NCBI GenBank assembly: GCA_019745975.1
Contig: JAIESQ010000168.1
Location: 1-43,872, forward strand
Length of the DNA: 43,872 nucleotides
Direction: 5' to 3'
DNA from: Pirellulales bacterium
GTDB taxonomy: Bacteria > Planctomycetota > Planctomycetia > Pirellulales > JAEUIK01
Shown: piece after piece, positions 3,185-37,623 of the stretch
Numbering within the stretch: position 1 is the first letter of the stretch
Layout of the letters: the number at the start of each line of letters is the position of its first letter
The notes under the pieces: generated by a model
Seen by the model: only the letters and a program-made list of their open reading frames with translations
Database searches by the model: none
Told to the model about the DNA's origin: nothing
Program-made: the position numbers and the translations under genes

Positions 3185-5929
3185 TCACTCGGCAACGTAG
3201 GCCTGGCGATTGCGATAGAGCTTCAGTCGAGCCTCGAGCGCCATGGCGAGCTCATCGTCTTTCGCCGTGCGGGCCGCCGCGAGGGCTTCTTCGGCAGTAG
3301 GCACCGCCTTGTCAAACTGTCCACTGGCCGCTTGCGCAGCGGCCAACGTGTCGAGCCAGCTGGGCCGTGTGGCAGCACGATCGGCGCAGGCGAATTCGGC
3401 CAAGCGCAGGGCCTCGGCCGGATCGCGGAGTTTTTCGTCCGGTGCCGTCGCCAGATGCCAGGCCAAAGAATTGGCCAATTCGCGCGAATCGGGTTTGAGC
3501 TGGTACGCACGGCGGTAGGCATCGAGTGCTCGGCGATGATCGCGCAAGACGCTCGCGCATTGGCCAAGCTCGAACCATAGTTCGGGCTCAGCCGGAATTT
3601 CCGCGACGGCGGCCTCGAGCACGCGACGGGCCGCCGCGTTATCGCCCTCGGCACGCCAGGTGCGCGCCAACAACAAGTGAGCCTTGGCACCGTGCGGCGC
3701 TAGTTCGATCGCCCGCGCAATCGCGACGCGCGCAGCGACGAAGTCGCCGGCCCCGCCATGCACCTGGGCCAGTTGCAACCACGTTGTGTACGACTGGGGA
3801 TCGCGGCGCAGGACTTCGTCGAATTGGGCAATCGCGTCCAAAATGCGTTTGTCGGCTAGGAATAACCTGGCCAGTGCAAGGCGCGCGGTCCGATTGGCCG
3901 GAGCGTCGTCGATCAGGCGCTGGAGCTCGGCGATCGCGGCGGGCGCTTGCCCGAGTTCTTCGAGCAACAGGGCGTAACGGAGCCGCAGATCGCCGCGCAT
4001 TGGTTCGGTAGCCAACGCCCAGCGGCAAAGCTCGACCGCGTCGGCGAACTGTCGTCTGTTAGTCAGCTCGTCGAGCCGCGCGATGAGATCGTCGGCCGGA
4101 AACAGCCAGGCCACGAGCGCCGCGTGACGTTCGGCTGGCGACAACCGCGCGCTCGACCTGGCGGTTGGCGCCACGCGATGCGCGAAGATTGCCAGGCTGG
4201 GGATCGTTTCGCGATCGGGATCAAGCTTCGAGTAGTGCAACAGCTCATCGCCATTCGCCGGGTCGGGCTGCAGTAACCGACAGTTGACGATCGGGGCGAA
4301 GCGGTTCGCCACCCACACCAGCAACGGGTCGCCCGCCGATGTGTCGCCGCGAAATTCCTCGATGGGCGGAAAGGTCGGCGCGCGAAAGGTGTTGGCGGCA
4401 TAGCCAGTCAGCGGCTTGCTCACGTAACCCAACCGCGGTAGCGCGAGAAAGTGCACGAAGGGATTGGGGGCAATGATGGGGCGCGAGCCGGCGTTGTCGG
4501 CCAGGTACTTCACGGCGGCGAGATTCGCGCGGTGATCCTTGAGATACTCGCGGCTGCGTTCGAGCAAGGCGCCGGTGCGCTGGTCGAACTCGTCGATACC
4601 GGCGATCGCGGGGAAGAAGCGACCGTCGGCGTTGAGCAGATTGAAGCCGATGACGGCGCCAGCCGCCACAACGCCGAAGCGCCGCCAGGCCGGATTGGCG
4701 AATAGCACCAGGCCAAGATTGACCCATAGGAAGGTCAGCGGCAATAGCAAGTAGCGCGGGATAGTGTAGATTTGGGCCAGCGCCGCGATGGTCGCCAGCA
4801 GAATCAGCCAACCGAAAAGCGTGTCGCGGTCCGCGAGCACGACGTCGAGCAGTCGCGACAGCAGCGCCGCCGTGCGGCCGCGCGGCGGTGCCTGCGGCCC
4901 GTCGTTAGCGCCGATACTCTGCGGGCGAGTCTTGTGACGGGGTTGCATCATGTCGCGCCAGCATGTGCCGCTGACGATGACCGCGCCCAGCAGGGCGACA
5001 GCAGTCAACAGCAACAGGTCGGGGCACCAGTAGCGCACCTCGGCGAGCGACGCGAGGCCGGCCTGGACGTCGTAGACAAACCGCTCTTGATCGATCGTCG
5101 TGTGCAGGCTGTTGACCCAATCCATGACGGCCATTTCGATCGCCAGGACCACGAAGAGCAGGCCCAAGCCGACGAGTCGCCGCGCGAGCGCGACGCGGTC
5201 GCCGTGCAGCATGGCCGCGACCACCAGCAGCGTTAGACATCCGAAGGCGGCCACCAGCCAGAGCAAACCACTGAGCTTGATGAAATAGGCCGCGAGCGCG
5301 GCGACGGCCGCGGGCAGATAGCGCTCGCGGAGGAAAAGTCCTCCGGCGACGAACGCCATCAGCGTCATGGGCAGGTCCATACCGATCATGTCGACCTGGG
5401 CCGCGAAGAGGGGAGTGGTCAACAGCGCGGCGGCAGCCAAGGTAGCACCCATGCGCCCGGTTCGCGGAGCCAACGCGGTGTAGACCAATAGCACGAGCGC
5501 AGCGGCGACCGCTAGGTTCGCCAGGTGCCCGAGTACGATAACGACCTTGGTCGAGGGGACTAGCCACATCAGGGTGGCAAGTAGCGTTGGCATCACGCTG
5601 ACGAGATAGATGCCGGTTCCTCCTTCGATGAAGCGGCGCTCTTCGTCGATAAGACGGCGATAGCTGAAATTGGTTTCGGCCAGGAAGTTGGCTTCGACGA
5701 ACAGTCCCATGGCCGAATCCCAGTAGGGGGGCGAGGCAATGATCTCGCGGCGCCACGCAACCAGCGCGAGCCAAAGTGCCACGAGCGCCAACGCCGCGTT
5801 GCGCCACGGTTGCTTGCCGAAGGGGGTATCGCGATCGCGCCTCGGATTCGCAGGCGAGCGCCGGATGCGCGCTTCGCCGCGGTGCGGGGGCGTGGATTCT
5901 GCAGGCTGCGAGCCGCGACGTGCATTCAT
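3185..5929 (-). CDS. GT39-like polytopic membrane glycosyltransferase fused to TPR domain
   Basis: A 914-residue protein. An N-terminal basic, Pro/Arg-rich tail (1-42) precedes a GT-C-type membrane region (about 45-450). After the first helix comes a loop with PPYWDSAMGLF; Asp71 sits where GT39/ArnT-like enzymes carry their catalytic aspartate. These enzymes use lipid-linked sugars on the outer face of the membrane. A soluble segment follows, then about seven TPR-like helical pairs from about residue 610 to the end. The last 80 residues carry a cap motif (LDTLAAA then an LY..RQ ending) shared with two other large proteins of this locus. There is no good Shine-Dalgarno at ATG 5929. It diverges from the SGNH gene. 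The assignment as glycosyltransferase is by fold and motif; donor and acceptor are unknown. Confidence 0.85.
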   Translation of the reverse strand: MNARRGSQPAESTPPHRGEARIRRSPANPRRDRDTPFGKQPWRNAALALVALWLALVAWRREIIASPPYWDSAMGLFVEANFLAETNFSYRRLIDEERRFIEGGTGIYLVSVMPTLLATLMWLVPSTKVVIVLGHLANLAVAAALVLLVYTALAPRTGRMGATLAAAALLTTPLFAAQVDMIGMDLPMTLMAFVAGGLFLRERYLPAAVAALAAYFIKLSGLLWLVAAFGCLTLLVVAAMLHGDRVALARRLVGLGLLFVVLAIEMAVMDWVNSLHTTIDQERFVYDVQAGLASLAEVRYWCPDLLLLTAVALLGAVIVSGTCWRDMMQPRHKTRPQSIGANDGPQAPPRGRTAALLSRLLDVVLADRDTLFGWLILLATIAALAQIYTIPRYLLLPLTFLWVNLGLVLFANPAWRRFGVVAAGAVIGFNLLNADGRFFPAIAGIDEFDQRTGALLERSREYLKDHRANLAAVKYLADNAGSRPIIAPNPFVHFLALPRLGYVSKPLTGYAANTFRAPTFPPIEEFRGDTSAGDPLLVWVANRFAPIVNCRLLQPDPANGDELLHYSKLDPDRETIPSLAIFAHRVAPTARSSARLSPAERHAALVAWLFPADDLIARLDELTNRRQFADAVELCRWALATEPMRGDLRLRYALLLEELGQAPAAIAELQRLIDDAPANRTARLALARLFLADKRILDAIAQFDEVLRRDPQSYTTWLQLAQVHGGAGDFVAARVAIARAIELAPHGAKAHLLLARTWRAEGDNAAARRVLEAAVAEIPAEPELWFELGQCASVLRDHRRALDAYRRAYQLKPDSRELANSLAWHLATAPDEKLRDPAEALRLAEFACADRAATRPSWLDTLAAAQAASGQFDKAVPTAEEALAAARTAKDDELAMALEARLKLYRNRQAYVAE

Positions 5930-6005
5930 CGTGATGGCTGGCTCGCTTGATTCCTTGAACGATCCGACCCTGGCGACTGGTCGGCGGCATGCCGGGCCGC
6001 GCTAG

Positions 6006-6064
6006 CCCCTCGGGCGGCTATCAACAATACTGGAGTTGAGTTCGGCTGCGTTGTCGCCGAGGGG
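6006..6064 (+). promoter_or_regulatory. Inverted repeat whose 3' arm covers the SGNH gene Shine-Dalgarno
   Basis: CCCCTCGG at 6006-6013 is exactly complementary to CCGAGGGG at 6057-6064. The second arm contains the GAGGGG that serves as ribosome binding site for ATG 6074. If the transcript begins upstream of 6006, the arms could pair across a 43-base loop and limit translation. A chance match in GC-rich DNA is possible. Confidence 0.3.
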
Positions 6065-6073
6065 TTTGGCTAC

Positions 6074-7330
6074 ATGACATGCTATCTTGCCGGACTCTGG
6101 AGCTTCAATCCGATGGACCGCTCGGTGACAGCCAGCATCGCGGATCGTCCAGCGACCGCGTTGCCGGGGAAGCAGACCCCTTTGCCGCGCACCGGTCGGG
6201 GGCGGTGGTTTCGCGCCAGCGCGCTGTTGCTAGGGCTGGCGCTCGGGATGGCGGCTACAGAAGTAGCGTTGCGGGCGCTCGACATCCACCCGAGCAAGAT
6301 GCTCATCAAGCGTTACTTGATGGGGAACGATGTGGGGAGCATTTACTGGTGTTACCCCGACAACCCGCATGGGGAATTTCGGCCCGTGCCCGTCGTGAGC
6401 TACGGCAATTGGGTACTAAAGATCATGAAAATGCCACGGATGGTCGAGATTCCGCTGTCGCGGCTGCGTGAAACGCCCTGGTGCGTCGAGTATCACACCT
6501 CGCCGCAAAAGCTGCGCGACCGGGAGTTCGGCCCGCGCCCCAGCGGCGTGCTCCGCGTGGCCGGCGTGGGGGATTCGTTCGCGGCCGGCGAAGGAGTGCC
6601 GATTGAGCGGTCGCTGTTTAAGCGAATCGAAACCGAGCTGGGGACGGGCTACGAGGTAGCCAATGCCGCCCAGCCGGGACATGGCACTCGCGACGAACTG
6701 GAGCGTTTGCGGTTCCTGGCTAGCAAGCTCGATTGCCAGCGCGGGATCGTCGTCTGGATCGCCAACGACGTCGGTCGCACGCCAGAGCTCGAAGCGCGTC
6801 AAGACTACGTCAACGACCTGGTCTTATTGCGAGACGAGCGGCTGCAGGATGATGACCAGCGCTGGTATCGCGGGCGGTCGCGGCTGATCGACCTGGTCGA
6901 TTCGCGACTGCACTTGTGGTCGGCGCGCGACGACTTGGCCCGCGTGACGGCCGACACGATCCAGTGGTACCGCGATTGTTACGATCCAACCAAGAACGGC
7001 GAGAACTTGCGCCAATTCGAAGCCGACCTGGCCGCGATCGCAGCCGTGCCTGGCTGCCAAAGTGTGCTCGTGCTGTACCCGATGCTGGAGGGGATTGAGT
7101 CCGGCTATCCGTTGGCCGACGTGCACGCCTATGTCGCACGGGCAGCGACGCGCGCGGGGCTGCCCGTGCTCGATCTGGCGCCCGTGTTTCGCGGCGAGCG
7201 GAGTAGCGACCTATGGGTCCATCCGGTCGATCATCATCCAAATGGCCACGCGCACGAGTTGGCGGCGGCGGCAATCGTCGACTGGCTGCGCCGCGATGTG
7301 CCCGGCTTTCTCGAGCGACCGGCGGATTGA
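6074..7330 (+). CDS. SGNH/GDSL hydrolase-like membrane-anchored protein
   Basis: A 418-residue protein with one N-terminal membrane helix (about residues 47-62) and an external SGNH-hydrolase-type domain. Block I is seen as GVGDSFAAGEG with nucleophile Ser168; block V is DHHPNGH with Asp386 and His388 as the likely acid/base pair. SGNH proteins of this layout often deacylate or acylate polysaccharides at the cell surface. GAGGGG nine bases before ATG 6074 supports this start; an internal ATG at 6113 lacks such a site. It lies between two large membrane-TPR genes on the opposite strand and ends three bases from the converging one, suggesting a part in the same surface-glycan or glycoprotein pathway (inference). 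Confidence 0.85.
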   Translation: MTCYLAGLWSFNPMDRSVTASIADRPATALPGKQTPLPRTGRGRWFRASALLLGLALGMAATEVALRALDIHPSKMLIKRYLMGNDVGSIYWCYPDNPHGEFRPVPVVSYGNWVLKIMKMPRMVEIPLSRLRETPWCVEYHTSPQKLRDREFGPRPSGVLRVAGVGDSFAAGEGVPIERSLFKRIETELGTGYEVANAAQPGHGTRDELERLRFLASKLDCQRGIVVWIANDVGRTPELEARQDYVNDLVLLRDERLQDDDQRWYRGRSRLIDLVDSRLHLWSARDDLARVTADTIQWYRDCYDPTKNGENLRQFEADLAAIAAVPGCQSVLVLYPMLEGIESGYPLADVHAYVARAATRAGLPVLDLAPVFRGERSSDLWVHPVDHHPNGHAHELAAAAIVDWLRRDVPGFLERPAD

Positions 7331-7333
7331 CCA

Positions 7334-9907
7334 TCACGGCTTGTCGAGCGCGCGGCGAACGACCTCGAGGTTGCCGCGGGCTTCGGCGTAGCCAGGGCTA
7401 ATCTCAACCGCGCGGGCCAGGTGCTCGGCGGCTTTGCCTGTATCGCCCGACTTGTACAGCAGCACGCCGAAATTGTTGTGCAACACCGCGTTGTTTGGCT
7501 GCAACTCGAGCGCGGCGCGGTAGTGCTCGGCGGCTTCGGCCGTGCGCCCAAGGCGATCGCAGAGCGAGGCCAGCGCCGCTTGGGCGTCGGCTAATCGGGG
7601 ATTTTGAGTAACCGATCGGATGTAGAGCGCGTACGCCTCATCAGAGCGTCCCTGGCGATTGCGAATTTCGGCGAGGTTGTACAAGGCGTCGGCCTGCTTG
7701 GGATCGGCGCCAAGTAGCCTATCGAAATAACCGGCCGCCGCGTCAAGCTGATTCAACGAAAGTAGCGCCAACCCGGAATTCCTCAAGGCGTGCGGATTCT
7801 GCGGCTCGATGTCGAGTGCTCGGGCGTAAGCGGCTACCGCTTCGTTAAGTTGACCGGCCTGCCACAGGGCGGTCCCCAGGTTGACGTACGGCGCTGCTTC
7901 GTCGGGCACGAGGCGTAGCACCTCGCGATAGGCGGTGATGGCGCCCTCGCGGTCGCCGGTGCGTTCAAGCGCCTGGGCGAGCGTATTCCAATTGCCGGCA
8001 TCCTCAGTTTGCAGGCGCAGTGCGGCGCGGATTTCGGGAACGGCTTGGGCCCAGCGGTCGGCGCGTCCCAGCGCGGCCGCCAGACTCAGGTGCGTCGGGG
8101 TGGAGTTTGGATCGAGGCGGACCGCCGCCTGGTAGTGCAGCATGGCGGCATCGTGGTCGCCCTGGTTGCGGAGCGATTCGGCCATTACATGGTGGCACGA
8201 CGCGTTGTTTGGCTGCAGCTCGAGGCCGCGGCGGAAGCAGGCCATTGCTTTGGCGCTTTCGTGGCGGCGCGCGTAAGCCATGCCCAGCAGCAACTGCCCT
8301 CGCGCGAGTCGATCATTCGCCGCGGCGCGTTGGTACTCGATCAGCGCCGCGTCGTCTTGGCCGCGCCGCGTCAACTCGACGGCCAGAATTTGCCGCAAGA
8401 GGGGGCTGTCGGGGTTTGTCGCCAGGCCGGCGACCGCCACCCGTTCGCTGTCCTTCCACGTCAGGCACTGCCGATGTGCCAGGACGCCAAGCACGATGGT
8501 CAACACCGCGACGGCGGCCGCGGTACCCTTCAGCCAGGTTCCGCCGCGATTTGCCATCACGGCAACACCCCAGGCGACGAGCAACGCCGGCCCGATCATT
8601 GCCAGATACATGTAGCGATCGGCAACCGTCGAATTGTCTTGATAGCCAAAGGGAATGAATCCAAGCAGCGGCGCCAATCCCGCGAGAAATAGTCCCAGCG
8701 CCACCCGGAGCGTCCGCTCGGTTCTCAAAGGACGCAGGACAACCAGGAGCGTCAACACGACGGCCGGCGCCAGCCAGGTGGTGTAGAGCAACCCAGGACG
8801 CTCAACAAGCCAACGGGGGGAGCGGCCGTAGTCGGTCGAGAGTCCGACTGGCCAAAGCAACTTGCCGAGATAGAACGCAACGGCGTCGCTGGCGATGAAA
8901 GGGCGTGCCGACCAGGGCGCTACGAACTCAAAGTCCTCGCTCTGCTGCTGTGTCTTGGTGATCGCAGCGAGGGCTAGGGCCAACAACATCCAGACCGCCA
9001 AAGGGGCAAGTTGCCGCCAGCCCGGCCGGTACCACCCGATGGCAATTACGGCAGCCATGATTGGCACCGAAACCGCCATCGGTTTCGACAACAGCGATAA
9101 TGCAAAACACAGGGTGGCTGCGGCGAGGTACACGATCGCGCCGCGCGATTGTGATGATCCGCGCGCGCTTTCGACGAAACGCAGGTAGCCGAGAATTGCT
9201 CCCCAGGAAAATACGGCGCACAGCAGCCCTTTGGTCTCGGTGACCCAGGAGACGGACTCGACCTGCACCGGATGGATTGTAAATAGCAATGCACCGGCCA
9301 AGGCACCGATTTCGGATCCGGTTACTCGGCGCAGCAGTAGCAAGACACCCAGCGCCGACACCACGTGCAGTAGCAGATTGCCGACGTGAAAGACGCGTGG
9401 ATCGAGCAACTTATTGGGATCTGGCGGCGGCTCAACCAGGGCCTTCGTCGCGGCCGCTCCATCGGCCGGCGATACCGGCGACGGCTTGCTTGCGCCTCCC
9501 GTAAGTGCCGTTAGTTCAATCGTCGGCGTGGCGGGCTTCGTAGCCTCGACGACCGGCGTGAGCGATCGCGCGATCGCCACTTCCGCCGCCCAGAACATCG
9601 ACGTGACGGGCACGTACACACCACTGTAGGGGCGCAGCCAGAGTTGGCGGATGTTGCGCCAGGTGAAGGGGCGGTAATAGGTGTTATCGGTGATATTCGG
9701 CGGATCGTCGTAGTTGAGAAATTGGTGCCCCACGACCGGATAGTAGACAGCCACTGTGGCGGCCACGACTACCGCAGCCGACGCCAACCCGCGCGCCGGC
9801 TTCGACCACGTCAGCGGTGACCAGCCGCGTCTCCGCGACAGCGATTGCTGAGCCACGGCAGCAGCCGAGGGAGGTGTCGAAAGCTGCTTGAAGGTCGAGC
9901 CCGCCAT
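7334..9907 (-). CDS. TMTC-like GT-C membrane protein with C-terminal TPR array (A)
   Basis: An 857-residue protein resembling the TMTC family (transmembrane and TPR-containing). After helix 1 (about 41-58) comes FLNYDDPPNI, with the Asp67-Asp68 pair typical of GT-C enzymes. The diagnostic HPVQVESVSWVTETKGL block lies further on. About ten to twelve membrane helices extend to about residue 475. Roughly eleven TPRs then fill residues 485-855 and end without the cap motif found in three neighbours. Compared with protein B it carries an extra Pro/Ala/Thr-rich insertion of about 45 residues between the first loop and helix 3. It is second in a minus-strand pair with protein B, 46 bases downstream, so they are probably cotranscribed. 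Animal TMTCs O-mannosylate cadherins; the substrate here is unknown. Confidence 0.87.
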   Translation of the reverse strand: MAGSTFKQLSTPPSAAAVAQQSLSRRRGWSPLTWSKPARGLASAAVVVAATVAVYYPVVGHQFLNYDDPPNITDNTYYRPFTWRNIRQLWLRPYSGVYVPVTSMFWAAEVAIARSLTPVVEATKPATPTIELTALTGGASKPSPVSPADGAAATKALVEPPPDPNKLLDPRVFHVGNLLLHVVSALGVLLLLRRVTGSEIGALAGALLFTIHPVQVESVSWVTETKGLLCAVFSWGAILGYLRFVESARGSSQSRGAIVYLAAATLCFALSLLSKPMAVSVPIMAAVIAIGWYRPGWRQLAPLAVWMLLALALAAITKTQQQSEDFEFVAPWSARPFIASDAVAFYLGKLLWPVGLSTDYGRSPRWLVERPGLLYTTWLAPAVVLTLLVVLRPLRTERTLRVALGLFLAGLAPLLGFIPFGYQDNSTVADRYMYLAMIGPALLVAWGVAVMANRGGTWLKGTAAAVAVLTIVLGVLAHRQCLTWKDSERVAVAGLATNPDSPLLRQILAVELTRRGQDDAALIEYQRAAANDRLARGQLLLGMAYARRHESAKAMACFRRGLELQPNNASCHHVMAESLRNQGDHDAAMLHYQAAVRLDPNSTPTHLSLAAALGRADRWAQAVPEIRAALRLQTEDAGNWNTLAQALERTGDREGAITAYREVLRLVPDEAAPYVNLGTALWQAGQLNEAVAAYARALDIEPQNPHALRNSGLALLSLNQLDAAAGYFDRLLGADPKQADALYNLAEIRNRQGRSDEAYALYIRSVTQNPRLADAQAALASLCDRLGRTAEAAEHYRAALELQPNNAVLHNNFGVLLYKSGDTGKAAEHLARAVEISPGYAEARGNLEVVRRALDKP

Positions 9908-9953
9908 GGGGAGCGCCGGAACGAACTGGTAAAAGCGCCTGACTGGGGTATTG

Positions 9954-12509: not shown

Positions 12510-12901
12510 GCTCTCGATGGTACACGAAGCGGGCGGGGTAGAGCTCCGAGTCGCGCAGATAAACTGAGCGAATGGAACTTGGCTGCAAATCCCCTTGGCG
12601 CCGAGCCTTAAATAACCGTAACATCTGTACCGCAAGCAGGTTAGGGATAATGCTGGGGAGTAGTCTTAGCGGGGCTGTCGTCAGCACCTCGGCACCCCCC
12701 TTATGGGCGAGGTCCTAGTGCCCAGTGCGGTTATAGCGATTTCGCCAAAAAGTCAAATTTTTTAGTTGCAAGAGTTGGCGCGTCAGATAGTATGGCGTTC
12801 CGATCCTGCCCACATTGGGGGGCCAGGGGATTGCGCGACTTTAGGGTCGATTGGGTTTCGTTGACTTCCGCACCGTGACAATCGTTCATAGGGAAACGGG
12901 A
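12510..12901. other. Divergent intergenic region between TMTC-like B and PEP-CTERM gene
   Basis: About 390 bases without a gene. It must hold promoters for both directions. A plus-strand candidate is listed separately. On the minus strand the AT-rich stretch around 12605-12635 (TTATTTAAGG on that strand) could be a promoter for the B/A pair, but the hexamer match is poor. No repeat or RNA gene was recognised. Confidence 0.4.
12766..12793 (+). promoter_or_regulatory. Possible sigma70-type promoter for the PEP-CTERM gene
   Basis: TTGCAA (12766-12771) and TAGTAT (12788-12793) are separated by 16 bases. They lie in a locally AT-rich island just before the GC-rich leader of the PEP-CTERM gene. 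The start of transcription would fall near 12800, leaving a leader of about 100 bases. Confidence 0.35.
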
Positions 12902-14692
12902 ATGACATCTGGCAAATTTACCCGTTCGGGCCAGTTGGTGAGAAGCATCGCGACACTCGCATTGGTCGGTGCCCTGCTGGAGTTCATCACGCCCCTCGCG
13001 ACGGCAGACGTCACCGGTAGCATCGGCCAGAATTTCTTTAACGGCTTCACAATCAACGAAGGCTCGTCGGGCTCGGCTGTTCTGCAGTTGTTCGTCACGC
13101 CGGCGAACTCGTCGGGCTTTGCCGGCACCACGACGCACCGCATCAATGCCGGGAATCCGCTGACGTTTAGCGCGCCGGGCAGCACGGGCGGTGCGACGCC
13201 GACTACGGGTGGTGACTTCGGCAACGGCACGGCAAACTGGTCGGCGTCGTTTCAGTACAACCTGCCGGGAGTTTACAACGTCTCCTATGGCGGCACGGTG
13301 AGCTGGTTGCATAGCGCCAACGGTTCGTACAACCCCGTTACTGGTAACTATAGCGGTACTGGCTTCCAAGGCGTGGGCAGCAACATCAACGTTACAGTTC
13401 TGAATGTAGCGCCGACGATCACCAGCGCGAACCTGAATGGCACCAACGGTGGACTCTCCGTCGGCCAGGGAGCGAGTGTCACCGCCAATATGACGGCTAC
13501 CGATGCTGGCTCGGACGACTCCTTCTTCACAATCAATGGTGCCGGCGCCGGTTCCGCGAGCGCTGCCCCTGGCGGCACCAGAACGTCGAGTAACGTGGGG
13601 GTCAACACAGTACTGGCCCCGGGTATCTACACTCAGACCTACGTCGTCGCAGATACCTTTGGTAGTGGAAACATCACGACAACCCGCAATCTAACGATTA
13701 CGAACGTCGGCCCATCGATCACAGCCGCTCGGGTCAATGGGGTCAATGGTGATCAGACGATCGCCCAGGGCAACGGTGCGACACTCAATATGTCGGCGAC
13801 TGACCCGGGCGGCGATACGATCAACTACACCATCAACGGGGCCGGGGCGGGAAGCTCGCCGAGCGGCGGTAATTCGTCGAATGTTGCTACGGGAACGTTC
13901 CTGGCTCCGGGCGTCTATACGCAGACTTACCAGGCAGCGGACACGTTCGGTGGATCGTCCGGTACGTTGACACGCAACATCACCGTGACGAACGTAGCCC
14001 CGACGATCACCAGCGCCAACCAGGATGGCACAAACGGCAACATTACCGTGCTACAGGGCGCTTCGGTGACGTTGAACCTGACAGCGACCGACCCGGGCAA
14101 CGACACCATGTCGTTCACCATCAATGGTGGCGGCGCCGGTTCGACCGGGGTTCAGGCAGGAGGTTCGACCCGCACGTCGGCCGATAACGCGGTGCAGTAT
14201 TTCACGCCAGGCGTGTTCACGAACACCTTCCAGGCGACCGATCAATACGGCGCGAACGCCTCGAATGGGCCCGCGACACGCGATGTGACGGTGCTCAATG
14301 TTGCCCCGGTTATCACCAGCCTGTTGGCGACTGACGTTCCGAATATTTTGGGGAACGGCTGCCTGATGTTCTTCACGGCGACCAGTACCGATCCTGGTAT
14401 CCTCGATTCGGCGATCTACAGTTGGGACCTCAACGGTGACAACATCTTCGGTGACTACGTCAGTGTCGATCCGGCTCCGCCGTGGAGCTCGACCACACCG
14501 ACCATCCTTTATGGGCTTGGTACGCACACGATTGGCGTGATGGTCACTGACAATTGGGGAGGTTTCGACCCAATTAACGGAGTTGCCTATCTGACGTTCG
14601 AGTGCTTGCCAGAACCTTCGACCTGGGTAGCGATACTGCTCTCAGGTGGTGCGCTGGCCTTCTTCCATCGGCGGAAGAAGCGGAAGACTTGA
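12902..14692 (+). CDS. PEP-CTERM sorting-signal protein with tandem Ig/cadherin-like repeats
   Basis: A 596-residue exported protein. The N-terminus has a signal sequence (basic start, then SIATLALVGALLEFITPLATA). Residues about 168-465 hold three tandem units of 96-102 residues, each opening with NV.P.IT.A and containing NMTATD-, TINGAGAGS- and PG.YTQT-like blocks; a fourth, diverged PKD-like unit follows. The protein is rich in Ser, Thr, Asn and Gly. The C-terminus is a textbook PEP-CTERM signal: PEPSTW at about 570-575, a hydrophobic helix, then RRKKRK. Family knowledge says such tails are cut by exosortase and the protein goes to the surface; no exosortase lies in this window. GGGAAACGGGA before ATG 12902 supports this start over the upstream frame opening at 12851. 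A strong terminator follows. Confidence 0.92.
   Translation: MTSGKFTRSGQLVRSIATLALVGALLEFITPLATADVTGSIGQNFFNGFTINEGSSGSAVLQLFVTPANSSGFAGTTTHRINAGNPLTFSAPGSTGGATPTTGGDFGNGTANWSASFQYNLPGVYNVSYGGTVSWLHSANGSYNPVTGNYSGTGFQGVGSNINVTVLNVAPTITSANLNGTNGGLSVGQGASVTANMTATDAGSDDSFFTINGAGAGSASAAPGGTRTSSNVGVNTVLAPGIYTQTYVVADTFGSGNITTTRNLTITNVGPSITAARVNGVNGDQTIAQGNGATLNMSATDPGGDTINYTINGAGAGSSPSGGNSSNVATGTFLAPGVYTQTYQAADTFGGSSGTLTRNITVTNVAPTITSANQDGTNGNITVLQGASVTLNLTATDPGNDTMSFTINGGGAGSTGVQAGGSTRTSADNAVQYFTPGVFTNTFQATDQYGANASNGPATRDVTVLNVAPVITSLLATDVPNILGNGCLMFFTATSTDPGILDSAIYSWDLNGDNIFGDYVSVDPAPPWSSTTPTILYGLGTHTIGVMVTDNWGGFDPINGVAYLTFECLPEPSTWVAILLSGGALAFFHRRKKRKT
13403..14296 (+). repeat. Three tandem ~100-residue coding repeats in the PEP-CTERM protein
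   Basis: Units begin at 13403, 13703 and 13991 (100, 96 and 102 residues), and a diverged fourth begins at 14297. Units 1 and 3 are closest: both begin APTITSAN and repeat near-identical DNA at their starts. Shared blocks include TATD or SATD, FTINGAGAGS or close variants, and PG[IV]YTQTY. The likeness at DNA level suggests fairly recent internal duplication. Confidence 0.8.
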
Positions 14693-14728
14693 TCGTCCGC
14701 CACGCGATGGAACGGTAGAGAACATCGA

Positions 14729-14760
14729 CCGCCGGTTCCTTGGAGCCGGCGGTTTTTTTT
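14729..14760 (+). terminator. Rho-independent terminator after the PEP-CTERM gene
   Basis: The arms CCGCCGGTTCC and GGAGCCGGCGG form a stem of about ten pairs with one G-U wobble and a tight loop, followed at once by eight T residues (14753-14760). It lies 37 bases past the PEP-CTERM stop codon. It is the clearest intrinsic terminator in the window. Confidence 0.88.
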
Positions 14761-14837
14761 GCGCTCGATCTGAGGTTAGCCACCATCCTTTTATCGATCT
14801 TGAGTTAGTCGGTTCGCACTAGTCTAGATATCGGTTT

Positions 14838-14865
14838 TTGACAGTTTCTGGCATACGCCTATACT
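14838..14865 (+). promoter_or_regulatory. Near-consensus sigma70 promoter upstream of TMTC-like C
   Basis: TTGACA (14838-14843) matches the -35 consensus exactly, and TATACT (14860-14865) matches the -10 at five of six positions, with 16 bases between. Transcription would begin near 14872 and leave an untranslated leader of about 230 bases before the TMTC-like gene. This separates the 15103-20384 gene pair from the terminated PEP-CTERM unit. Confidence 0.6.
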
Positions 14866-14910
14866 GAAACTGGCTTAACGTAAGCATCAGCTCGACTTTG
14901 AGTTTCTTCT

Positions 14911-14935
14911 AATCGTGCCACTTCGTGGTACGATT
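14911..14935 (+). promoter_or_regulatory. Leader hairpin downstream of the 14838 promoter
   Basis: AATCGTGCCAC and GTGGTACGATT pair over 11 positions with a single G-U wobble around a TTC loop. It lies about 40 bases into the predicted transcript. It has no U-tract on the plus strand, so it is not a terminator in that direction. It could be a binding site or a 5' stabilising structure. Confidence 0.4.
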
Positions 14936-15102
14936 CCATTGGACCGATTTCGCCAGCGTCATCGCGGGGGCCTGCAATCTCCGTCGCTGACAGTCTGTCG
15001 GACTGGGGTATGTCGCCAAGCTTGTCATGCCCTGGCACGCTACCGTGAGGTTGTGGGCCGCGTCTCGTCTACTTGCCATGCCCTTTGTGCCGCTGTCGCC
15101 GC

Positions 15103-17670
15103 GTGCTGACTTCCCAAGACAGAATCCTGAGCGCCTTCCGTAAGCAGGTCTGGCCGCGGCTCTCGGCAGGCTGGGGTGGCGCACTGATTCTCAGTGCGTT
15201 GCTGGTCGCCGTCGTCCTGGTGATCTACGGGCGTGCCTGGGGGAATGAATTCCTCGAGTATGACGACCAAGTCTATGTCACGCGAAATTACAATCTCGAT
15301 CGCGGCTTTACGCGCACGCAGAATTCATCGGGATCGGGGCTCGCGTGGGCGTTCACCACCCAAACAGCGCACAACTGGCATCCCATCACCTGGCTGTCGC
15401 ACCTGCTCGATGTGCAATTGTTCGGCCGCGACCCGCGTTGGCACCATGGCGTCAACGTCTTGTTGCACGCGATCAATTCGGCACTGATGTTTCTGGTGTG
15501 GCGCAGTCTGACCGGACGCGTTTGGCCGAGTGCCCTAGTGGCGGCGCTATTCGCCGTGCATCCGCTCAACGTGGAGTCGGTCGCCTGGGTCGCCGAACGG
15601 AAGAACGTGCTGAGCATGTTCTTTCTGCTGTTGACGCTGCTGGCTTACGGTGCGTATGCCCGCAAAGGCGGCCTTGCCCGCTATCTGTTGGTGACGCTGT
15701 TCCTAGCGTTGGGCTTGATGTCGAAGTCGATGCTGGTCACGGTCCCTTGCGTCCTGCTGATCCTCGACTATTGGCCGTTGCACCGCCTGCAATTCGCCTG
15801 GACCGGCCAGCAGCTTGCGCGATCAACTGCCCCGTCGGGAGGGTCGGTGACCGCGGTCGAGGGGAAAGAATCGGCGCGACGCATCGCTGACATGCGTCGC
15901 GGCGCTCCGACTAGGGCGTCCAGCTCCGCATCGGCGACGGCGGCTCCGGTTGCACCGCCGGTCAAGCGTTCTCGAACTACGGCGGTGGATAATGCACCAG
16001 GAGCGCACTCAAAACCCGCGGGGCGGCAGCCATGGTGGTGGATACTGTTGGAGAAGCTCCCCTGGCTGGCGATGGCGGCCTATGTGTCGCAGAAGACGTT
16101 GCAGGCGCAGGCGAGTTTGCAGGCCGACTATGCCGACCTGCCGCTCGGTGCTCGAATTGCCAACGCCCTCGTGTCGGACGTCGTTTACCTTTGGCAGATC
16201 ATCTGTCCGCTGAGACTCTCGCCGATGTACTTGCATTCGCAGGCGGGCTTAGCGCGGTGGCAACCGTTGGCCGGCGGTGCAATGCTTACGGCGATCACGG
16301 CGGTGGTTGTCTGGCAGATGCGCCGACGTCCTTATTTGCCCGTGGGTTGGTTCTGGTACCTGGGCACGCTCGTGCCAGTTAGCGGTTTCGTCCAGGTTGG
16401 CTTGCAATCGCGGGCGGATCGATACCTGTATCTGCCGGCGATCGGCATCTTTGTGGCACTGGCTTGGCTGTTGGCCGAACTCGTGCGCCGCTGGCCGTCG
16501 ACGTTGTGGCCCGCCGGGCTGGCCAGCGGTGCGGTGCTTATGGGCTTGAGTGGTTTAACGGTTGTGCAAGTAGGTTATTGGCACGATCTTGGCACGCTCT
16601 TTGGGCGAGCCTTGGAGATCGACCCCGACAACTCCTACGCGCACTACCAACTGGGGGTGAGCTTGCGGGAAAAGGGGCGAAATGCTGAAGCGGTGCCACA
16701 TTTCGAGCGAGCGCGCGAGCTCGCTCCGATCGCCGTCGAAGCGCAATTGGCCCTAGTCGGCGTGCTGGCGCTCGACGGTCGAATCGCCGAAGCGGAGAAG
16801 ATCCTCGACGAGCAGTTGCGCTCCGATCCGCGATCCGAGCAATGTCTCCTCAACCGGGCGCTGGTGTTGATCGAAAAGGGAGACTTGCCCTTAGCTTCGG
16901 CCGACTGTCGCCGCGTGTTGGAGGACATCAATCCGGAAAGTTCGCGCGCATTCATTTACAGCAGTGTCATCGCTGCTCGGCAAGGCAAGCTTGAAGAAGC
17001 CGCCGAGTACCTAGACGAAGCCCTGCGGATGGATCCACAAAATGCCGAGGCGCGATTGAACGCCGGTCGCGTTGCGCAGGCGCGCGGTGATTTGCCGGGG
17101 GCACTGAAGTTACTGCGCGAGGCCATTGCCATCGAACCGGGGAGCGCGCTGGCCTGGTATACCTACGGCATGGCCCTAGCCGAGGCGAAGGATCGCCCCG
17201 CCGCGATCGAAGCCCTGGAGCACGTGGTTGAACTGAATCCGCAGCGTGCCGGCGTGCATTTTCAGCTCGGTAGGATGTTGGCCGAAGAGGACCGTGCCAA
17301 TGAGGCCCTTGGCCATTTTCGGGTTGCCTTGGAGCAGACGCGCAATACCCCCGACTGGCCCTTGGTAGCCAACAGCGCCGCCTGGCTGTTGGCAACCCAT
17401 CCGAGCTCGGCGGTACGCAACGGCCCCCAAGCGGTCAACCTGGCACAAATGGCTTGCCAACAGACGGCCTTTGGAGACCCAAGCTACCTCGATACGCTGG
17501 CCGCCGCATATGCGGAGGCCGGGAAGTTCGCCGAAGCCGTGGCCTACGCCAACAAGGCTTACGACGTCGCGTTTGACGCCAATCAGCTTGGATTGGCGGC
17601 CGACATCAAAATGCGGTGGCGATTCTACGAACACCAGCGGCCGTATCACACTCAGCAGACGCCGCAATAG
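15103..17670 (+). CDS. TMTC-like GT-C membrane protein with TPR array and C-terminal cap (C)
   Basis: An 855-residue protein from GTG 15103. The frame stays open back to TTG 15073, and neither start has a clear ribosome binding site, so the start is uncertain. Helix 1 spans about 25-42, followed by EYDDQVYVT with Asp54-Asp55, then NWHPITWLSHLLD, HPLNVESVAWVAERK and further helices, as in the common bacterial TMTC-like family. A low-complexity, Ser/Ala/Arg-rich loop of about 85 residues (roughly 245-330) interrupts the membrane part. TPRs fill residues about 498-760. The last 90 residues carry the cap motif PSYLDTLAAAYAEAG, also seen in the GT39-like protein and in the following acyltransferase fusion. 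Its stop lies two bases before the next start, so the two genes are almost certainly cotranscribed and probably translationally coupled. Confidence 0.87.
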   Translation: MLTSQDRILSAFRKQVWPRLSAGWGGALILSALLVAVVLVIYGRAWGNEFLEYDDQVYVTRNYNLDRGFTRTQNSSGSGLAWAFTTQTAHNWHPITWLSHLLDVQLFGRDPRWHHGVNVLLHAINSALMFLVWRSLTGRVWPSALVAALFAVHPLNVESVAWVAERKNVLSMFFLLLTLLAYGAYARKGGLARYLLVTLFLALGLMSKSMLVTVPCVLLILDYWPLHRLQFAWTGQQLARSTAPSGGSVTAVEGKESARRIADMRRGAPTRASSSASATAAPVAPPVKRSRTTAVDNAPGAHSKPAGRQPWWWILLEKLPWLAMAAYVSQKTLQAQASLQADYADLPLGARIANALVSDVVYLWQIICPLRLSPMYLHSQAGLARWQPLAGGAMLTAITAVVVWQMRRRPYLPVGWFWYLGTLVPVSGFVQVGLQSRADRYLYLPAIGIFVALAWLLAELVRRWPSTLWPAGLASGAVLMGLSGLTVVQVGYWHDLGTLFGRALEIDPDNSYAHYQLGVSLREKGRNAEAVPHFERARELAPIAVEAQLALVGVLALDGRIAEAEKILDEQLRSDPRSEQCLLNRALVLIEKGDLPLASADCRRVLEDINPESSRAFIYSSVIAARQGKLEEAAEYLDEALRMDPQNAEARLNAGRVAQARGDLPGALKLLREAIAIEPGSALAWYTYGMALAEAKDRPAAIEALEHVVELNPQRAGVHFQLGRMLAEEDRANEALGHFRVALEQTRNTPDWPLVANSAAWLLATHPSSAVRNGPQAVNLAQMACQQTAFGDPSYLDTLAAAYAEAGKFAEAVAYANKAYDVAFDANQLGLAADIKMRWRFYEHQRPYHTQQTPQ

Positions 17671-17672
17671 CT

Positions 17673-20384
17673 ATGTCGAGCGCCCATGTGCCACGGCCAG
17701 AGTACTTTCCGCAATTGACGGGGGTGCGGGCGCTGGCCGCCTGGTCAGTCTTCAACTACCACTTCAACCTGTTCTCGCCTGCACTGGTCGGTGATTGGGT
17801 CTACCGATTCACCGAGGAAATGTACTTGGGCGTGAACGTCTTCTATGTGCTCAGTGGATTTCTGATCTATCAGCGCTACGAGGCACAGCTCGTGGCCGGC
17901 GGCCGTTTGGCATTCTCGACCTACGTGCTGAACCGCTTCGCCCGGATTTATCCCGTCTATTGGTTGCTGCTGTTATCGGGTTATGTGGTGCGCGGATTCC
18001 CGGATCCGCTGACTTGCCTGGCCACTATAACGCTAACGCACGCGTTCTTTCCGACGCTCGTGCACGCAGGTATTCCACAAGCCTGGACGCTAACCATTGA
18101 AGAGACCTACTACTTCACGGCGCCATTGTTGTTTCGCAGCGCGCGGCGCATCGGCTTGTTGTTGACCTGTCTCGGCGTCGCGGCGCTGGCGTTGTTGTTG
18201 CCGGCACTGGGTGTCGGCAACACCGATCATCTCCTCGGGCGAACACTCTGCGGGGCAATCGGCTGTTTTGGGTGCGGGATGGCGCTAGCACGCGCGTTCG
18301 CCAGGCGGGACGCGCGCCCTTTGTTCGGCGCGCGCCCCTGGTTGACTTATGGCGGGCTTGTGCTCACGGCGCTGGTCGTCTTGACGATGTCGCGATTGAG
18401 CCTGCTTGCCGAGACTGGCCGTCCGAACGGCGAGCTGGCACATGGTCGCGACCATGGTCTGGGCGCGCTCATGATGTTCACACTGTTTCCGGCCCTGGTG
18501 GCGGTAGTGTTTTACGGCTTGTTGACCGAACCAAGCCGCTTGGCACGCTGCCTGGCGACGCGACCCATGGTGTTGCTAGGAGGCGCTTCGTATTCCTTCT
18601 ATCTGCTGCACAAGGGAGACTTGCAGGAATTGTGGTTCGAATATGTTAGTGCGAATTACCTGCTGGCCTTTGTCGCCTGCAATCTACTGGCGATCGGAAT
18701 CTTTCTACTGTATGAAACACCGATCGCGCGGTGGATTCGGGGCGCCGCGGGGCGAAGCAACGCCGAGACTCCTGTTTATGCAGGTGTTCTGTTTGGAGAA
18801 ACCGTGAATCCGTCGCAACTCGCGGTCACTGACGGTGGGGCTGCGGTGCCGTCAGGCGTCTCGCGGCGTGGCCCGATCCACTGGATTGCCTACTGCGCGC
18901 TGACCCTGGTCGTCCTGGCTGTCGAGCTTGTGCCGCGCGTCGTGGCGTCGCGAGGGGCTGAGATGACCGCGGCGCTGTGGACGGTCGAAGATGGGCCATA
19001 CGAATCGCTGGAAGCGATCCTTTGCGCCGCTGCAACGGCCATGTTTCTAGCGTCCGCCTGGTTCACGTATCGAAACTCCCGCGTCCAACCGCCAGGTCCA
19101 GAGGCCGCCAAGGCGACCGGGCACGCTCGCTGGCGTTGCGGCTGGCTTGTCGCGCTGGGTGTGATGTCGGCCGCCATGCTATGCGCGGAATTGAGTTTCG
19201 GCCAGCGCTTATTGGGCTTTGAAACTCCGCAATGGCTGCGCACCAGGAACTACCAAGGTGAGTTCTCGTTTCACAACCTGCTCATCTTTCAGTCGAGCGA
19301 CGAAGGCAATCGACTGGAGAATACCTGGTTAGTTTGCCTGTTGCTCTATCTGGGCGTGCTACCGATCGCCGCGCGTCTGTGGCCGCGTTTGGGGGCGATC
19401 ATCGCACGAGTCGCGTTACCGCTCGCGAGCGTCACGGTTGCGCTACTATTTCTCGGTGAACTCCTGCTGTTCATGAGCCTGCCACCATACTCCAGCGAGA
19501 CACTGGAACTGGCGATCGACGTGCTGCTGACAGTGCTGGCCGTAGAGACGCTGCTGGCGACGGGCGATGGTGAGGTCAAAGTGTCCGTGCGCCGCTGGGG
19601 TCTGGGTGTCGCCGCCTCCGTAGCAGCGCTTTTGGCGATCATGATTTTCGCGCTCGGGGGTCGTCACGCGTTGCCCACGGCGCGCAGCCGTGACCTGGTG
19701 ACCCAAGCACTCCGCCGGGCTAGTGCCAACGATTTTCCTGGCGGCCATAGGCTACTCCTCCAAGCGCTCGAGCTCTGGCCGCGCAATGGCGACGCGCATT
19801 ATCAACTGGCGCGCGTGCTGGCCACCGAAGGGGACTCGCACGGGGCGCTAGCGCACCTTGAGCAGGCGGTCGAATTACGCCCATCCGAACCGGAGTGGCG
19901 GCTGGCGCTGGGGATGATGCTGACCAAGGAAGGGAGGATCGCCGACGCGGCTGTCAGGTTGCGCGAGGTGCTTCGTTACGCGCCGAATTCTCCCAACGTA
20001 CAAACCTATCTGGCGTGGCTGCTCGCGACCGCGCCGGACGAAGCCGTGCGCGACGGCAACGAAGCGGTGAAGTTGGCCGAGGCAGCGGCGCGACAGACAG
20101 GGGACTCCCAGGTCTTCACCCTCGATGCACTGGCTGCTGCCTACGCCGAAGTGGGGCGGTACGACTTGGCCTCGCAAACTGCTGCCCGCGCAGTCGACGC
20201 TGCCATTGCCACTCAAAATGTCGCGCTTGCCGCCGAGATTCGCCAGCGGCAGCGACTGTATGAAAGCCGGCAGCCATTTCGCATGCTGCGCCAGGGGACG
20301 CCTCGGCCGGCGCCAAATCCGACGCCGGCTCCACGCGCGGACGACAGGGTTGAAGGGTCAACGGAGAAACCCGGCGACAGGTAG
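17673..20384 (+). CDS. Acyltransferase-3 / second membrane domain / TPR triple fusion
   Basis: A 903-residue protein from ATG 17673. Residues about 1-365 are an acyltransferase family 3 (OafA/YrhL-like) membrane domain: GVRALAAWSVFNYHF carries the expected Arg19 and His30. These enzymes O-acylate sugars at the membrane. Residues about 400-665 form a second polytopic region with ELSFGQRLLGFETPQWL (near 509) and a following QGE-FSFHNL block, a pattern I associate with an uncharacterised bacterial membrane family. Residues 668-880 are TPRs ending in the shared cap motif (LDALAAAYAEVG then LYESRQPF). A Pro/Arg-rich tail follows. Immediately downstream of TMTC-like C, so acylation and glycosyl transfer are probably linked (inference). 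Confidence 0.86.
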   Translation: MSSAHVPRPEYFPQLTGVRALAAWSVFNYHFNLFSPALVGDWVYRFTEEMYLGVNVFYVLSGFLIYQRYEAQLVAGGRLAFSTYVLNRFARIYPVYWLLLLSGYVVRGFPDPLTCLATITLTHAFFPTLVHAGIPQAWTLTIEETYYFTAPLLFRSARRIGLLLTCLGVAALALLLPALGVGNTDHLLGRTLCGAIGCFGCGMALARAFARRDARPLFGARPWLTYGGLVLTALVVLTMSRLSLLAETGRPNGELAHGRDHGLGALMMFTLFPALVAVVFYGLLTEPSRLARCLATRPMVLLGGASYSFYLLHKGDLQELWFEYVSANYLLAFVACNLLAIGIFLLYETPIARWIRGAAGRSNAETPVYAGVLFGETVNPSQLAVTDGGAAVPSGVSRRGPIHWIAYCALTLVVLAVELVPRVVASRGAEMTAALWTVEDGPYESLEAILCAAATAMFLASAWFTYRNSRVQPPGPEAAKATGHARWRCGWLVALGVMSAAMLCAELSFGQRLLGFETPQWLRTRNYQGEFSFHNLLIFQSSDEGNRLENTWLVCLLLYLGVLPIAARLWPRLGAIIARVALPLASVTVALLFLGELLLFMSLPPYSSETLELAIDVLLTVLAVETLLATGDGEVKVSVRRWGLGVAASVAALLAIMIFALGGRHALPTARSRDLVTQALRRASANDFPGGHRLLLQALELWPRNGDAHYQLARVLATEGDSHGALAHLEQAVELRPSEPEWRLALGMMLTKEGRIADAAVRLREVLRYAPNSPNVQTYLAWLLATAPDEAVRDGNEAVKLAEAAARQTGDSQVFTLDALAAAYAEVGRYDLASQTAARAVDAAIATQNVALAAEIRQRQRLYESRQPFRMLRQGTPRPAPNPTPAPRADDRVEGSTEKPGDR

Positions 20385-36566: not shown

Positions 36567-36573
36567 GCGAAGC

Positions 36574-37521
36574 TTAGCGTCGGCGCGGCAACTCCGGCCC
36601 GCGACCGGCGGCGGCCGTCGGGCGCTCAGCCACATCGGTCAGCTCGATCGCCATTTCGCCCTTCAACCCCGGCAGCAGAACCCACTGATTGTTGGCCAGC
36701 CGAGTGTTGACCACTTTGGCTTTGATGAGCACGAGCTCGCCACCGGGTTCGATCTCAGGTTTGACGAATTCAATCTTGCCGACAAAGGTCGTGTCGTTGA
36801 GCGGCGATTTGAATTCGGCCTTGCGGCCCAACAGCAGAGTAGGATTGCATTCCTTGATGCTGACGAAACCCTCGATCCAGAGCGTGTCGAGGCGAATAAT
36901 TCGGAGCACGGCGTCGCCGGGATTGGCCCACTCGCCGGCATGCAGGAGCAGCTCGACGACCTGGCCCTTGATGCGCGACTTGATTTGCCGTCGTTGAACG
37001 GCGATTCGAGCCGCGTCGAGCTTGGCGTTCTTGGCGTCGGCCGTCAGCACCATGATTTGCTGATCGACGGTGGCCTTTTCGGTTTGCAAGCGTGCTTCTT
37101 CCCACTTGTAGCGCTTGATGCGGATTTCCGACTGCGATTTGGCGCCAGGAACTTTCGTGTTGGCTTCGACTACCTGGTCGTATTCCGCTTTGGTGACTTG
37201 CGTCAGCTTGTCGGCGACTTTCACCTCGATGTCGTTCTCAGCCTGGGTGCGGGCGACTTGCGCCTCTTTTTCGGCGACCACCAGCTCCGCTTGCGGCTGC
37301 CGATCGTCGATGCGACCGAGCACCGTGTCGGGCTCGACTTCGAGGCCGAGCTTGGCTTCAAGTTCGACCAGTTCGCCGGCCTCGTTGGCGGAGATGCGTG
37401 CTTCTTCGATCAACGCCACCTGGCAGTTTCGCACCACGACGCGCGCGCTGCTCGTGTTTGCCGGTTCGCCGGGATCGCCGCCCAGGCAGACGGTGAGCAA
37501 GGTCAAGAGAGCCGCATGCAT
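36574..37521 (-). CDS. HlyD-family periplasmic adaptor protein
   Basis: A 315-residue secretion adaptor (membrane fusion protein). It has a short signal sequence (HAALLTLLTVCLGG), a split lipoyl-like domain (about 35-75 and 185-215), a long Lys/Glu/Ala-rich coiled-coil hairpin between them (about 75-185, VAEKEAQVARTQAEN), and a beta-barrel toward the C-terminus (WIEGFVSIKECNPTLLLG onward). Such adaptors bridge inner-membrane pumps and outer-membrane channels. It is the middle gene of the triad, starting about 100 bases after the GAF-HlyD stop and ending seven bases before the M50 start. Confidence 0.9.
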   Translation of the reverse strand: MHAALLTLLTVCLGGDPGEPANTSSARVVVRNCQVALIEEARISANEAGELVELEAKLGLEVEPDTVLGRIDDRQPQAELVVAEKEAQVARTQAENDIEVKVADKLTQVTKAEYDQVVEANTKVPGAKSQSEIRIKRYKWEEARLQTEKATVDQQIMVLTADAKNAKLDAARIAVQRRQIKSRIKGQVVELLLHAGEWANPGDAVLRIIRLDTLWIEGFVSIKECNPTLLLGRKAEFKSPLNDTTFVGKIEFVKPEIEPGGELVLIKAKVVNTRLANNQWVLLPGLKGEMAIELTDVAERPTAAAGRGPELPRRR

Positions 37522-37623
37522 GGCGATGATCCTTCGAGATAGCGTGAATAGATCGGCGTCAACAACTTCTTTCCAAGGCGGTAACCGTGGCGTCGGTTTC
37601 GTGCGGCGCCACGCACCACGTCG

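Follow-up and report, generated by a model that had tools for sequence, protein, structure and literature searches.

The window analyzed here is a 43,872-nucleotide stretch (contig JAIESQ010000168.1, C150 of genome G000) of the 6.98-Mb genome of a Pirellulales bacterium. It carries eight genes, P0001 to P0008, between positions 3185 and 20946, and we consider the chances about even that they form an exosortase-linked locus whose enzymes add sugars to a surface protein after it has left the cytoplasm. Judged from its sequence, the locus probably decorates with sugars either the surface protein P0005, a PEP-CTERM protein, or the matrix surrounding it. A modification of extracytoplasmic glycoconjugates is proposed because the same set of genes recurs: GT-C membrane enzymes, an acyltransferase, an SGNH protein, an exosortase and an antiterminator. 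TMTC enzymes were discovered as O-mannosyltransferases of animals, and the tetratricopeptide repeat (TPR) arms of the enzymes in the window, together with their immunoglobulin (Ig)-like neighbor, favor a protein acceptor by analogy with animal TMTC1-4. In the available part of PMC11292533, these animal enzymes are described as acting on Ig-like extracellular cadherin (EC) domains, which their TPRs are proposed to recruit.

Three of the genes, P0003 (7334–9907, minus strand), its tandem paralogue P0004 (9954–12635, minus strand; 39% identical) and P0006 (15073–17670, plus strand), encode a TMTC-like GT-C membrane domain followed by TPRs. The membrane part of P0003 was modeled with AlphaFold2 from an alignment of 76 sequences, P0004 and P0006 being covered by homology. 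This set was derived from 90 sequences of a tree by removing those shorter than 560 residues, which left 77, dropping four outliers and adding the three domains of the window. The resulting model had a mean predicted local distance difference test (pLDDT) value of 90.3 and a predicted template modeling (pTM) score of 0.89, and its best Foldseek matches among solved structures were archaeal AglB (E = 4.7e-4), Pmt4, yeast OST and ArnT. In VIA-align it superposed on STT3 with a Z of 21.1 (root-mean-square deviation, rmsd, 4.7 over 321 residues), on Pmt4 with 20.4 (4.2 over 344), on Pmt1/2 with 19.2 and on ArnT with 17.9 (5.0 over 333). The best 50 matches were GT-C-fold proteins, by title except for GPI-transamidase and translocon entries, which we take to share this fold. 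The model thus supports the GT-C fold predicted for these domains by the first-pass annotation, with STT3, Pmt4 and ArnT as the nearest structures.

An acidic pair after helix 1, previously noted in the three TMTC-like proteins, was conserved across the alignment (D32 in 75 of 76 sequences, with Glu in the remaining one; D33 in all 76). H177-P178, K240 and R300 were likewise invariant, R396 was present in 69/76, and the DD pair was found in all 19 TMTC-like copies used from the host genome, one broken copy having been left out. Judged from this alignment, retention of the putative active-site residues in nearly all 76 sequences is unexpected for decayed enzymes. It argues against the idea, which we regard as very improbable, that the membrane-TPR proteins have lost their transferase activity and instead scaffold exosortase cargo or help to assemble it; such a role would fit the TPR caps common to unrelated membrane domains, and it has a parallel in the TPR lipoprotein PrsT, a known companion of PEP-CTERM systems according to the available text of Haft et al. 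2006 (PMC1569441).

None of the three membrane domains in the window had a significant Pfam family match, and a profile of the three found no match among solved structures. When the 76-sequence profile was compared with solved structures, the best 60 of 483 matches were TPR proteins or TPR-mediated. Pfam PMT_2 matched 17/76 sequences (E up to 0.1, best 4e-10). TMTC_DUF1736 (PF08409) had no match in the host genome, control genomes being equally silent, and was not among the Pfam matches of P0010–P0012 up to an E of 10; P0012 had no match when searched against plasmids. The accessible portion of PMC7801869, where prokaryotic TMTC homologues are mentioned in passing, gives KET(Q)xxT, DW and ERxxY as motifs of the animal proteins. 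Matched by eye, with no animal sequence aligned, the Lys of the first motif was present in 76/76 sequences and followed by Pro in 64/76, an Asp before an aromatic residue in 30/76 (DW), and the Arg of the last motif in 69/76.

The proposed acceptor, P0005 (12851–14692, plus strand), is 613 residues long when read from a TTG codon; its true start is uncertain, and a length of 596 residues is possible. In agreement with its first description as a PEP-CTERM protein of tandem repeats, it scored above the cut-off of the PEP-CTERM model TIGR02595 (18.8 bits against 16; 24.6 bits in a second scoring), which covers the C-terminal PEP motif, helix and basic tail, and contained four repeats of about 96–102 residues behind a differing N-terminal part. 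The repeats are predicted to be all-beta. The best model had a mean pLDDT of 66.8 and a pTM of 0.41, the other four being worse, with ten-residue block means of 51–89 between residues 180 and 590. Foldseek ranked ciliary central-apparatus proteins first (7.5e-15), followed by receptor Ig/fibronectin proteins and titin, and the structural matches were mostly proteins with Ig, fibronectin type III or Ig-like domains. The best VIA-align Z was 10.6, with an rmsd of 13.1 over 382 residues, a large value because several domains were superposed. An Ig-like fold, and with it the suggested analogy between these beta-sandwich repeats and cadherin EC domains, is therefore supported by a model of moderate confidence.

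Ser and Thr together make up 23% of P0005 as compared with 10% of 612 other called proteins, and 17.6% of the 20 PEP-CTERM proteins, P0005 included, of the first locus set described below. PEP-CTERM proteins are rich in Thr, Ser and Asn, a composition that in 2006 was taken as a hint of glycoproteins (PMC1569441, in the part available). The host genome holds at least 62 PEP-CTERM matches above the cut-off (150 of 186 candidates scored) and two exosortase loci (PF09721, 7.1e-61 and 8.2e-41). An unusual substrate gene was observed in a genome of another genus, G006 (locus L196, contig C14, 12591–19586, minus strand): a frame of 2331 residues with seven PEP-CTERM signals (VPEPST, hydrophobic stretch, basic tail), the first six each followed by a signal-peptide-like stretch. 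Most of its units are 55–64% alike, and its sequence suggests a polyprotein that comprises seven exosortase substrates.

Two further membrane-TPR fusions accompany the three TMTC-like proteins. All five lay where the first-pass annotation had placed them, as open reading frames (ORFs) of 857–922 residues, with significant TPRs in each. Despite differing membrane parts, P0001, P0006 and P0007 end in a common run of TPRs (195–289 residues aligned), and the same cap is carried by an SGNH protein of genome G005 (L076; E = 1e-15 to 5e-19 against the three). P0007 (17673–20384, plus strand; a longer GTG ORF from 17616 would overlap P0006) was confirmed as the acyltransferase among the fusions: PF01757 matched at 7e-16, only when the N-terminal part was scanned alone, and at 4.1e-13 in the homologue L079. 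Between its acyltransferase-3 domain and its TPRs lies a second membrane domain ('FGQRLLGFETP', residues ~420–690), and a separate TPR-fused relative of this domain adjoins a host exosortase (L178, 7528–8838).

P0002 (6074–7330, plus strand) encodes a membrane-anchored protein that is SGNH/GDSL-like, as predicted, although its score of 28.6 falls below the curated Pfam cut-off of 32.9; the G006 homologue exceeds it (41.8). Similarly, the supposed RfaH-like factor P0008 (20392–20946, minus strand) resembles UpxY/RfaH antiterminators and has a NusG N-terminal domain above the cut-off (PF02357), yet remains below the curated thresholds for UpxY (76.2 bits against 100) and RfaH (56.7 against 144.5). 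The description of P0001 (3185–5929, minus strand; a putative GT-C protein of a family marked by 'PPYWDSAMG') as GT39-like was not confirmed: its membrane part had no Pfam match, its profile did not match that of the TMTC-like domains significantly (hhalign probability 5%), and comparison with solved structures gave no relevant match. Two of five aligned members of its family touched PMT_2 (best E = 0.017), P0001 itself not being among them.

We infer the following course of events. P0005 would be exported and sorted by the host exosortase through its PEP-CTERM tail, displaying Ser/Thr-rich Ig-like repeats. At the GT-C active site with its DD pair, P0003, P0004 and P0006 would accept a sugar carried on polyprenyl phosphate and transfer it onto these repeats, while the TPR arms of these enzymes would bring in the acceptor and hold it in place. 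A polyprenyl-phosphate-linked donor is probable by analogy with close GT-C relatives, for which the available text of PMC7801869 gives part of the basis. P0007 and P0002, as a pair, would O-acylate that same glycan or that protein, and transcription through the long locus would be sustained by P0008. In its most specific form, this would be a bacterial TMTC pathway in which paralogous enzymes with individual TPR arms O-glycosylate Ig-like, exosortase-sorted surface proteins encoded nearby, together with an acyltransferase and an SGNH enzyme of a common TPR-cap design; we put this forward tentatively and lean somewhat against it. If true, it would be a bacterial counterpart of TMTC–cadherin glycosylation, with the choice of substrate encoded in swappable TPR arms. 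The locus is a small, genetically definable setting for the study of TMTC function and of acceptor choice by TPRs, and it also bears on whether exosortase substrates are glycoproteins, as was suggested in 2006 from amino-acid composition (PMC1569441, in the part available).

Every gene type of P0001–P0008 recurred in a single locus of G006, where one TMTC gene replaces the P0003/P0004 pair. This locus extends across three contigs, C47, C125 and C83, with exact 127-base overlaps at both junctions. In the direction of the window, it comprises homologues of P0001 (40% identity), a seven-CxxCH cytochrome-like gene, a TMTC-like gene (38–39% to P0003/P0004), and homologues of the SGNH gene (49%), P0005 (40–50%), P0006 (37–58%, in two pieces), P0007 (42–52%, with 70% over the first 56 residues) and P0008 (59%). 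Every homologue keeps the relative strand it has in the window; the SGNH gene, which there precedes the P0003/P0004 pair, comes after the TMTC-like gene in G006. In the tree, P0006 and its G006 counterpart were sisters, both following a P0005 homologue. Beyond the P0001 homologue lie genes for an exosortase (PF09721, 1.5e-57), a protein with a CbiA/AAA_31-type ATPase part and a large TPR-like protein, then DUF3485 and DUF3473/polysaccharide deacetylase genes; beyond the P0008 homologue lies a UDPG/GDP-mannose dehydrogenase gene.

RfaH/UpxY factors and acyltransferase-3 plus SGNH pairs are typical of polysaccharide loci, and ArnT and GtrII-type GT-C enzymes act on glycolipids. These associations, the continuity of the G006 locus with exosortase, polysaccharide deacetylase and nucleotide-sugar dehydrogenase genes, the presence of ArnT among the close folds and the lack of a PEP-CTERM neighbor in most TMTC-like clusters examined all fit an alternative, in which the TMTC-like enzymes decorate an exopolysaccharide (EPS) or a lipid-linked precursor, P0007 and P0002 O-acylate the same glycan, and P0005 is a bound or anchored matrix protein. 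We consider this alternative possible, if doubtful: a TPR arm common to three enzyme types and to the L076 SGNH protein suggests a protein partner, and the protein-glycosylating STT3, Pmt4 and Pmt1/2 outscored ArnT, if by no more than about 3 Z units.

Association of TMTC-like with PEP-CTERM genes was analyzed in two sets of loci around TMTC-like genes: 70 loci (the window and 69 others) from the host genome and eight relatives, and another 40 loci from families of the order other than the host's. The loci were the best-scoring among the matches listed; L081/L083 and L105/L106 overlap, and the split G006 locus was counted twice (L053, L054). Genes within one locus are not independent, and the p-values are to be taken as guides. 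The PEP-CTERM rule picked out 20 proteins in the first set, as compared with 0 or 1 for each of seven control motifs. In the host's family, PEP-CTERM genes accounted for 12/123 genes adjacent to TMTC-like genes and 8/408 others (p = 3.4e-4), and for 11/120 and 8/388 when the window was left out (p = 1.1e-3); for all loci together, the counts were 15/223 and 11/677 (p = 2.8e-4). The 5′ flanks of single-strand TMTC blocks (128 blocks) held a PEP-CTERM gene in 14/116 cases and the 3′ flanks in 3/114 (p = 0.005). A PEP-CTERM gene lay in or beside clusters of at least two TMTC-like genes in 5/14 cases in the family and 2/14 in others, and beside single TMTC-like genes in 5/46 and 1/41, respectively. 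Thus, the co-occurrence anticipated by the first-pass annotation was borne out by enrichment in the host's family and by synteny in another genus, but not by significant enrichment outside this family.

From synteny and statistics taken together, the grouping of P0001–P0008 exceeds chance. TMTC-like and PEP-CTERM genes might nevertheless be numerous, paralogue-rich accessory genes that gather in the same variable regions without a common function, as could be supposed from their abundance in the host genome (about 20 and at least 62, on the candidates scored) and from an enrichment that is modest and seen in one family only. We regard this as unlikely, considering that all gene types are syntenic at 37–59% protein identity in another genus, that PEP-CTERM genes favor the 5′ side of TMTC blocks, and that P0006 and its G006 sister both stand behind a P0005 homologue.

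Several observations weigh against glycosylation of P0005 by its neighbors. Outside the host's family, PEP-CTERM genes made up 3/79 genes adjacent to TMTC-like genes and 3/192 others, which is not significant (p = 0.24); 11 loci of G009, G012 and G017 add, by difference, no PEP-CTERM adjacency; and a PEP-CTERM gene lay in or beside 10/60 TMTC clusters in the family and 3/55 outside. Relatives of P0005 also occur away from TMTC-like genes: a paralogue on host contig C134 has no adjoining one, homologues on G005 C15 and G049 C9 have none within flanks of about 1.5 kb, and neither do four non-seed members of a second PEP-CTERM family (A6; built from TMTC-adjacent seeds and not used as independent evidence). 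Conversely, a set of enzyme genes on G005 C11 (two minus-strand and one plus-strand TMTC-like genes, an acyltransferase-TPR gene, a P0001-type gene and a cytochrome-like gene) has no PEP-CTERM gene between them. Genes of the P0001 type as such were not enriched beside PEP-CTERM genes (1/38 against 3/106 in non-seed loci, p = 0.71), and P0001 itself is not confirmed as a glycosyltransferase. In the alignment, proline mostly takes the place of the glutamate in the animal KET(Q)xxT motif. A Pfam scan of 29 ORFs of the window found no polyprenyl-phosphate sugar synthase of the glycosyltransferase family 2 (GT2) type. P0005 and P0006 are probably transcribed separately, because a long terminator-like hairpin (14727–14754, plus strand; 12 pairs and a T-rich tail) lies 3′ of P0005 and a promoter-like site (TTGACA-16-TATACT, 14838–14865, plus strand; 11/12 matches) lies upstream of P0006. 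Terminator-like sites in the stretch numbered 2 against 2.2 expected in shuffles, that of P0005 having a long stem, and promoter-like sites 1 against 0.8. Finally, the exosortase/EPS context is also compatible with an exopolysaccharide acceptor. Since most TMTC clusters examined have no PEP-CTERM neighbor and relatives of P0005 are found apart from TMTC genes, enzymes and substrate are likely a dedicated pair at this locus and not a general one.

GT2 genes near several TMTC-like genes in other loci are at most suggestive of a sugar-donor supply: 18 genes in 14 loci came from a single-linkage cluster with other proteins mixed in, and PF00535 was confirmed for three of them and for one more on host contig C134. 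Within about 12 kb of the P0005 paralogue on that contig are P0001-type membrane-TPR genes, a gene for an AhpC/TSA-redoxin-TPR protein and a GT2 gene.

The locus can be set beside four kinds of known system. It resembles animal TMTC1-4 (CAZy GT105) in the GT-C membrane domain, the DD pair after helix 1, a conserved Arg near the last helices, the C-terminal TPRs and, as a candidate taken from a model, the Ig-like sandwich acceptor; it differs in that its proteins, of predicted activity, are bacterial, form large paralogue arrays and mostly have K-P for KET(Q)xxT, and in its acyltransferase neighbor and, in G006, exosortase/EPS genes. Bacterial PMT enzymes, such as the mycobacterial one, carry out protein O-mannosylation; they share the GT-C fold and, presumably, extracytoplasmic transfer to exported proteins, but have a PMT-type C-terminal part in place of the TPR arm, and PMT_2 matched only a minority of the TMTC-like set. 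Systems of the OafA/OafB type, in which acyltransferase-3 and SGNH proteins perform O-acetylation, likewise combine an acyltransferase-3 membrane domain (PF01757) with an SGNH protein in one locus, whereas here the acyltransferase-3 domain is joined to another membrane domain and to TPRs, with the SGNH protein standing on its own. PEP-CTERM/exosortase and EPS loci (Haft et al. 2006, PMC1569441, in the part available) have in common with the present locus the PEP-CTERM substrate and, with G006, the exosortase, DUF3485, polysaccharide deacetylase and nucleotide-sugar genes; that text names PrsT and EPS genes and, as far as available, no TMTC-like GT-C gene beside a PEP-CTERM gene. A literature search, covering few subscription journals and no bioRxiv preprints, yielded no paper recognizable as describing TMTC-like genes next to PEP-CTERM ones.

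As a whole, the locus appears to be an innovation of the host's family, because a P0005 match at 1e-10 was found in 7/396 genomes of the order (three candidates scored per genome) and the P0001 family (1e-15; 5/196 genomes) in the host's family only. TMTC-like genes as such are more widely distributed. A search of the order with alignment A4 matched 115/117 genomes at 1e-20, which is no presence/absence survey since A4 includes TPRs. A scan of genome contigs gave 25 pattern matches and five loci at 26–33% identity, in metagenome-assembled genomes labeled Geobacter, Deltaproteobacteria, Acidobacteria (twice) and Nitrospina; these were excluded from the neighborhood counts. The 39 match pieces of the host genome were grouped into about 20 TMTC-like genes, distributed over 16 contigs, with three genes in the window. 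Another, on contig C153 (L045, 4563–6371), is disrupted and has an in-frame TAG within one match piece. TMTC-like genes of relatives often stand in runs of two to six. Runs of four, with more nearby (L105/L106, G089 C404), and of six (L108, G040 C47) occur in genomes from other families of the order, with no PEP-CTERM gene in the stretches examined.

On G005 C16 (L072), two minus-strand TMTC-like genes are followed by two plus-strand PEP-CTERM genes and a plus-strand TMTC-like gene, an order reminiscent of the window with other PEP-CTERM proteins. A second conserved locus, on host contig C77 and G005 C22, comprises a PEP-CTERM gene (27% identity), a P0001-type gene (32%) and four further genes (46–75%), with a TMTC-like gene in between in the G005 version. 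Thioesterase and 4′-phosphopantetheinyl transferase genes follow its P0001-type gene (L086, 2324–3861; L182, 9326–10866; Pfam on L182). Seven-CxxCH cytochrome c-like proteins with TPR-like ends accompany membrane-TPR genes in G006 and G005 (L176, 5271–7097; L180, 15195–17090); no ORF in the window has four or more CxxCH motifs.

The intergenic gaps from P0001 to P0008 are, in order, 144, 3, 46, 215, 380, 2 and 7 bases, and P0006 and P0007 look like a single transcription unit. Elsewhere in the window, three adjoining minus-strand genes with HlyD-type domains (34296–39681) form an export-like cluster, in which one gene has a weak M50-peptidase-like part and one a weak GAF match.

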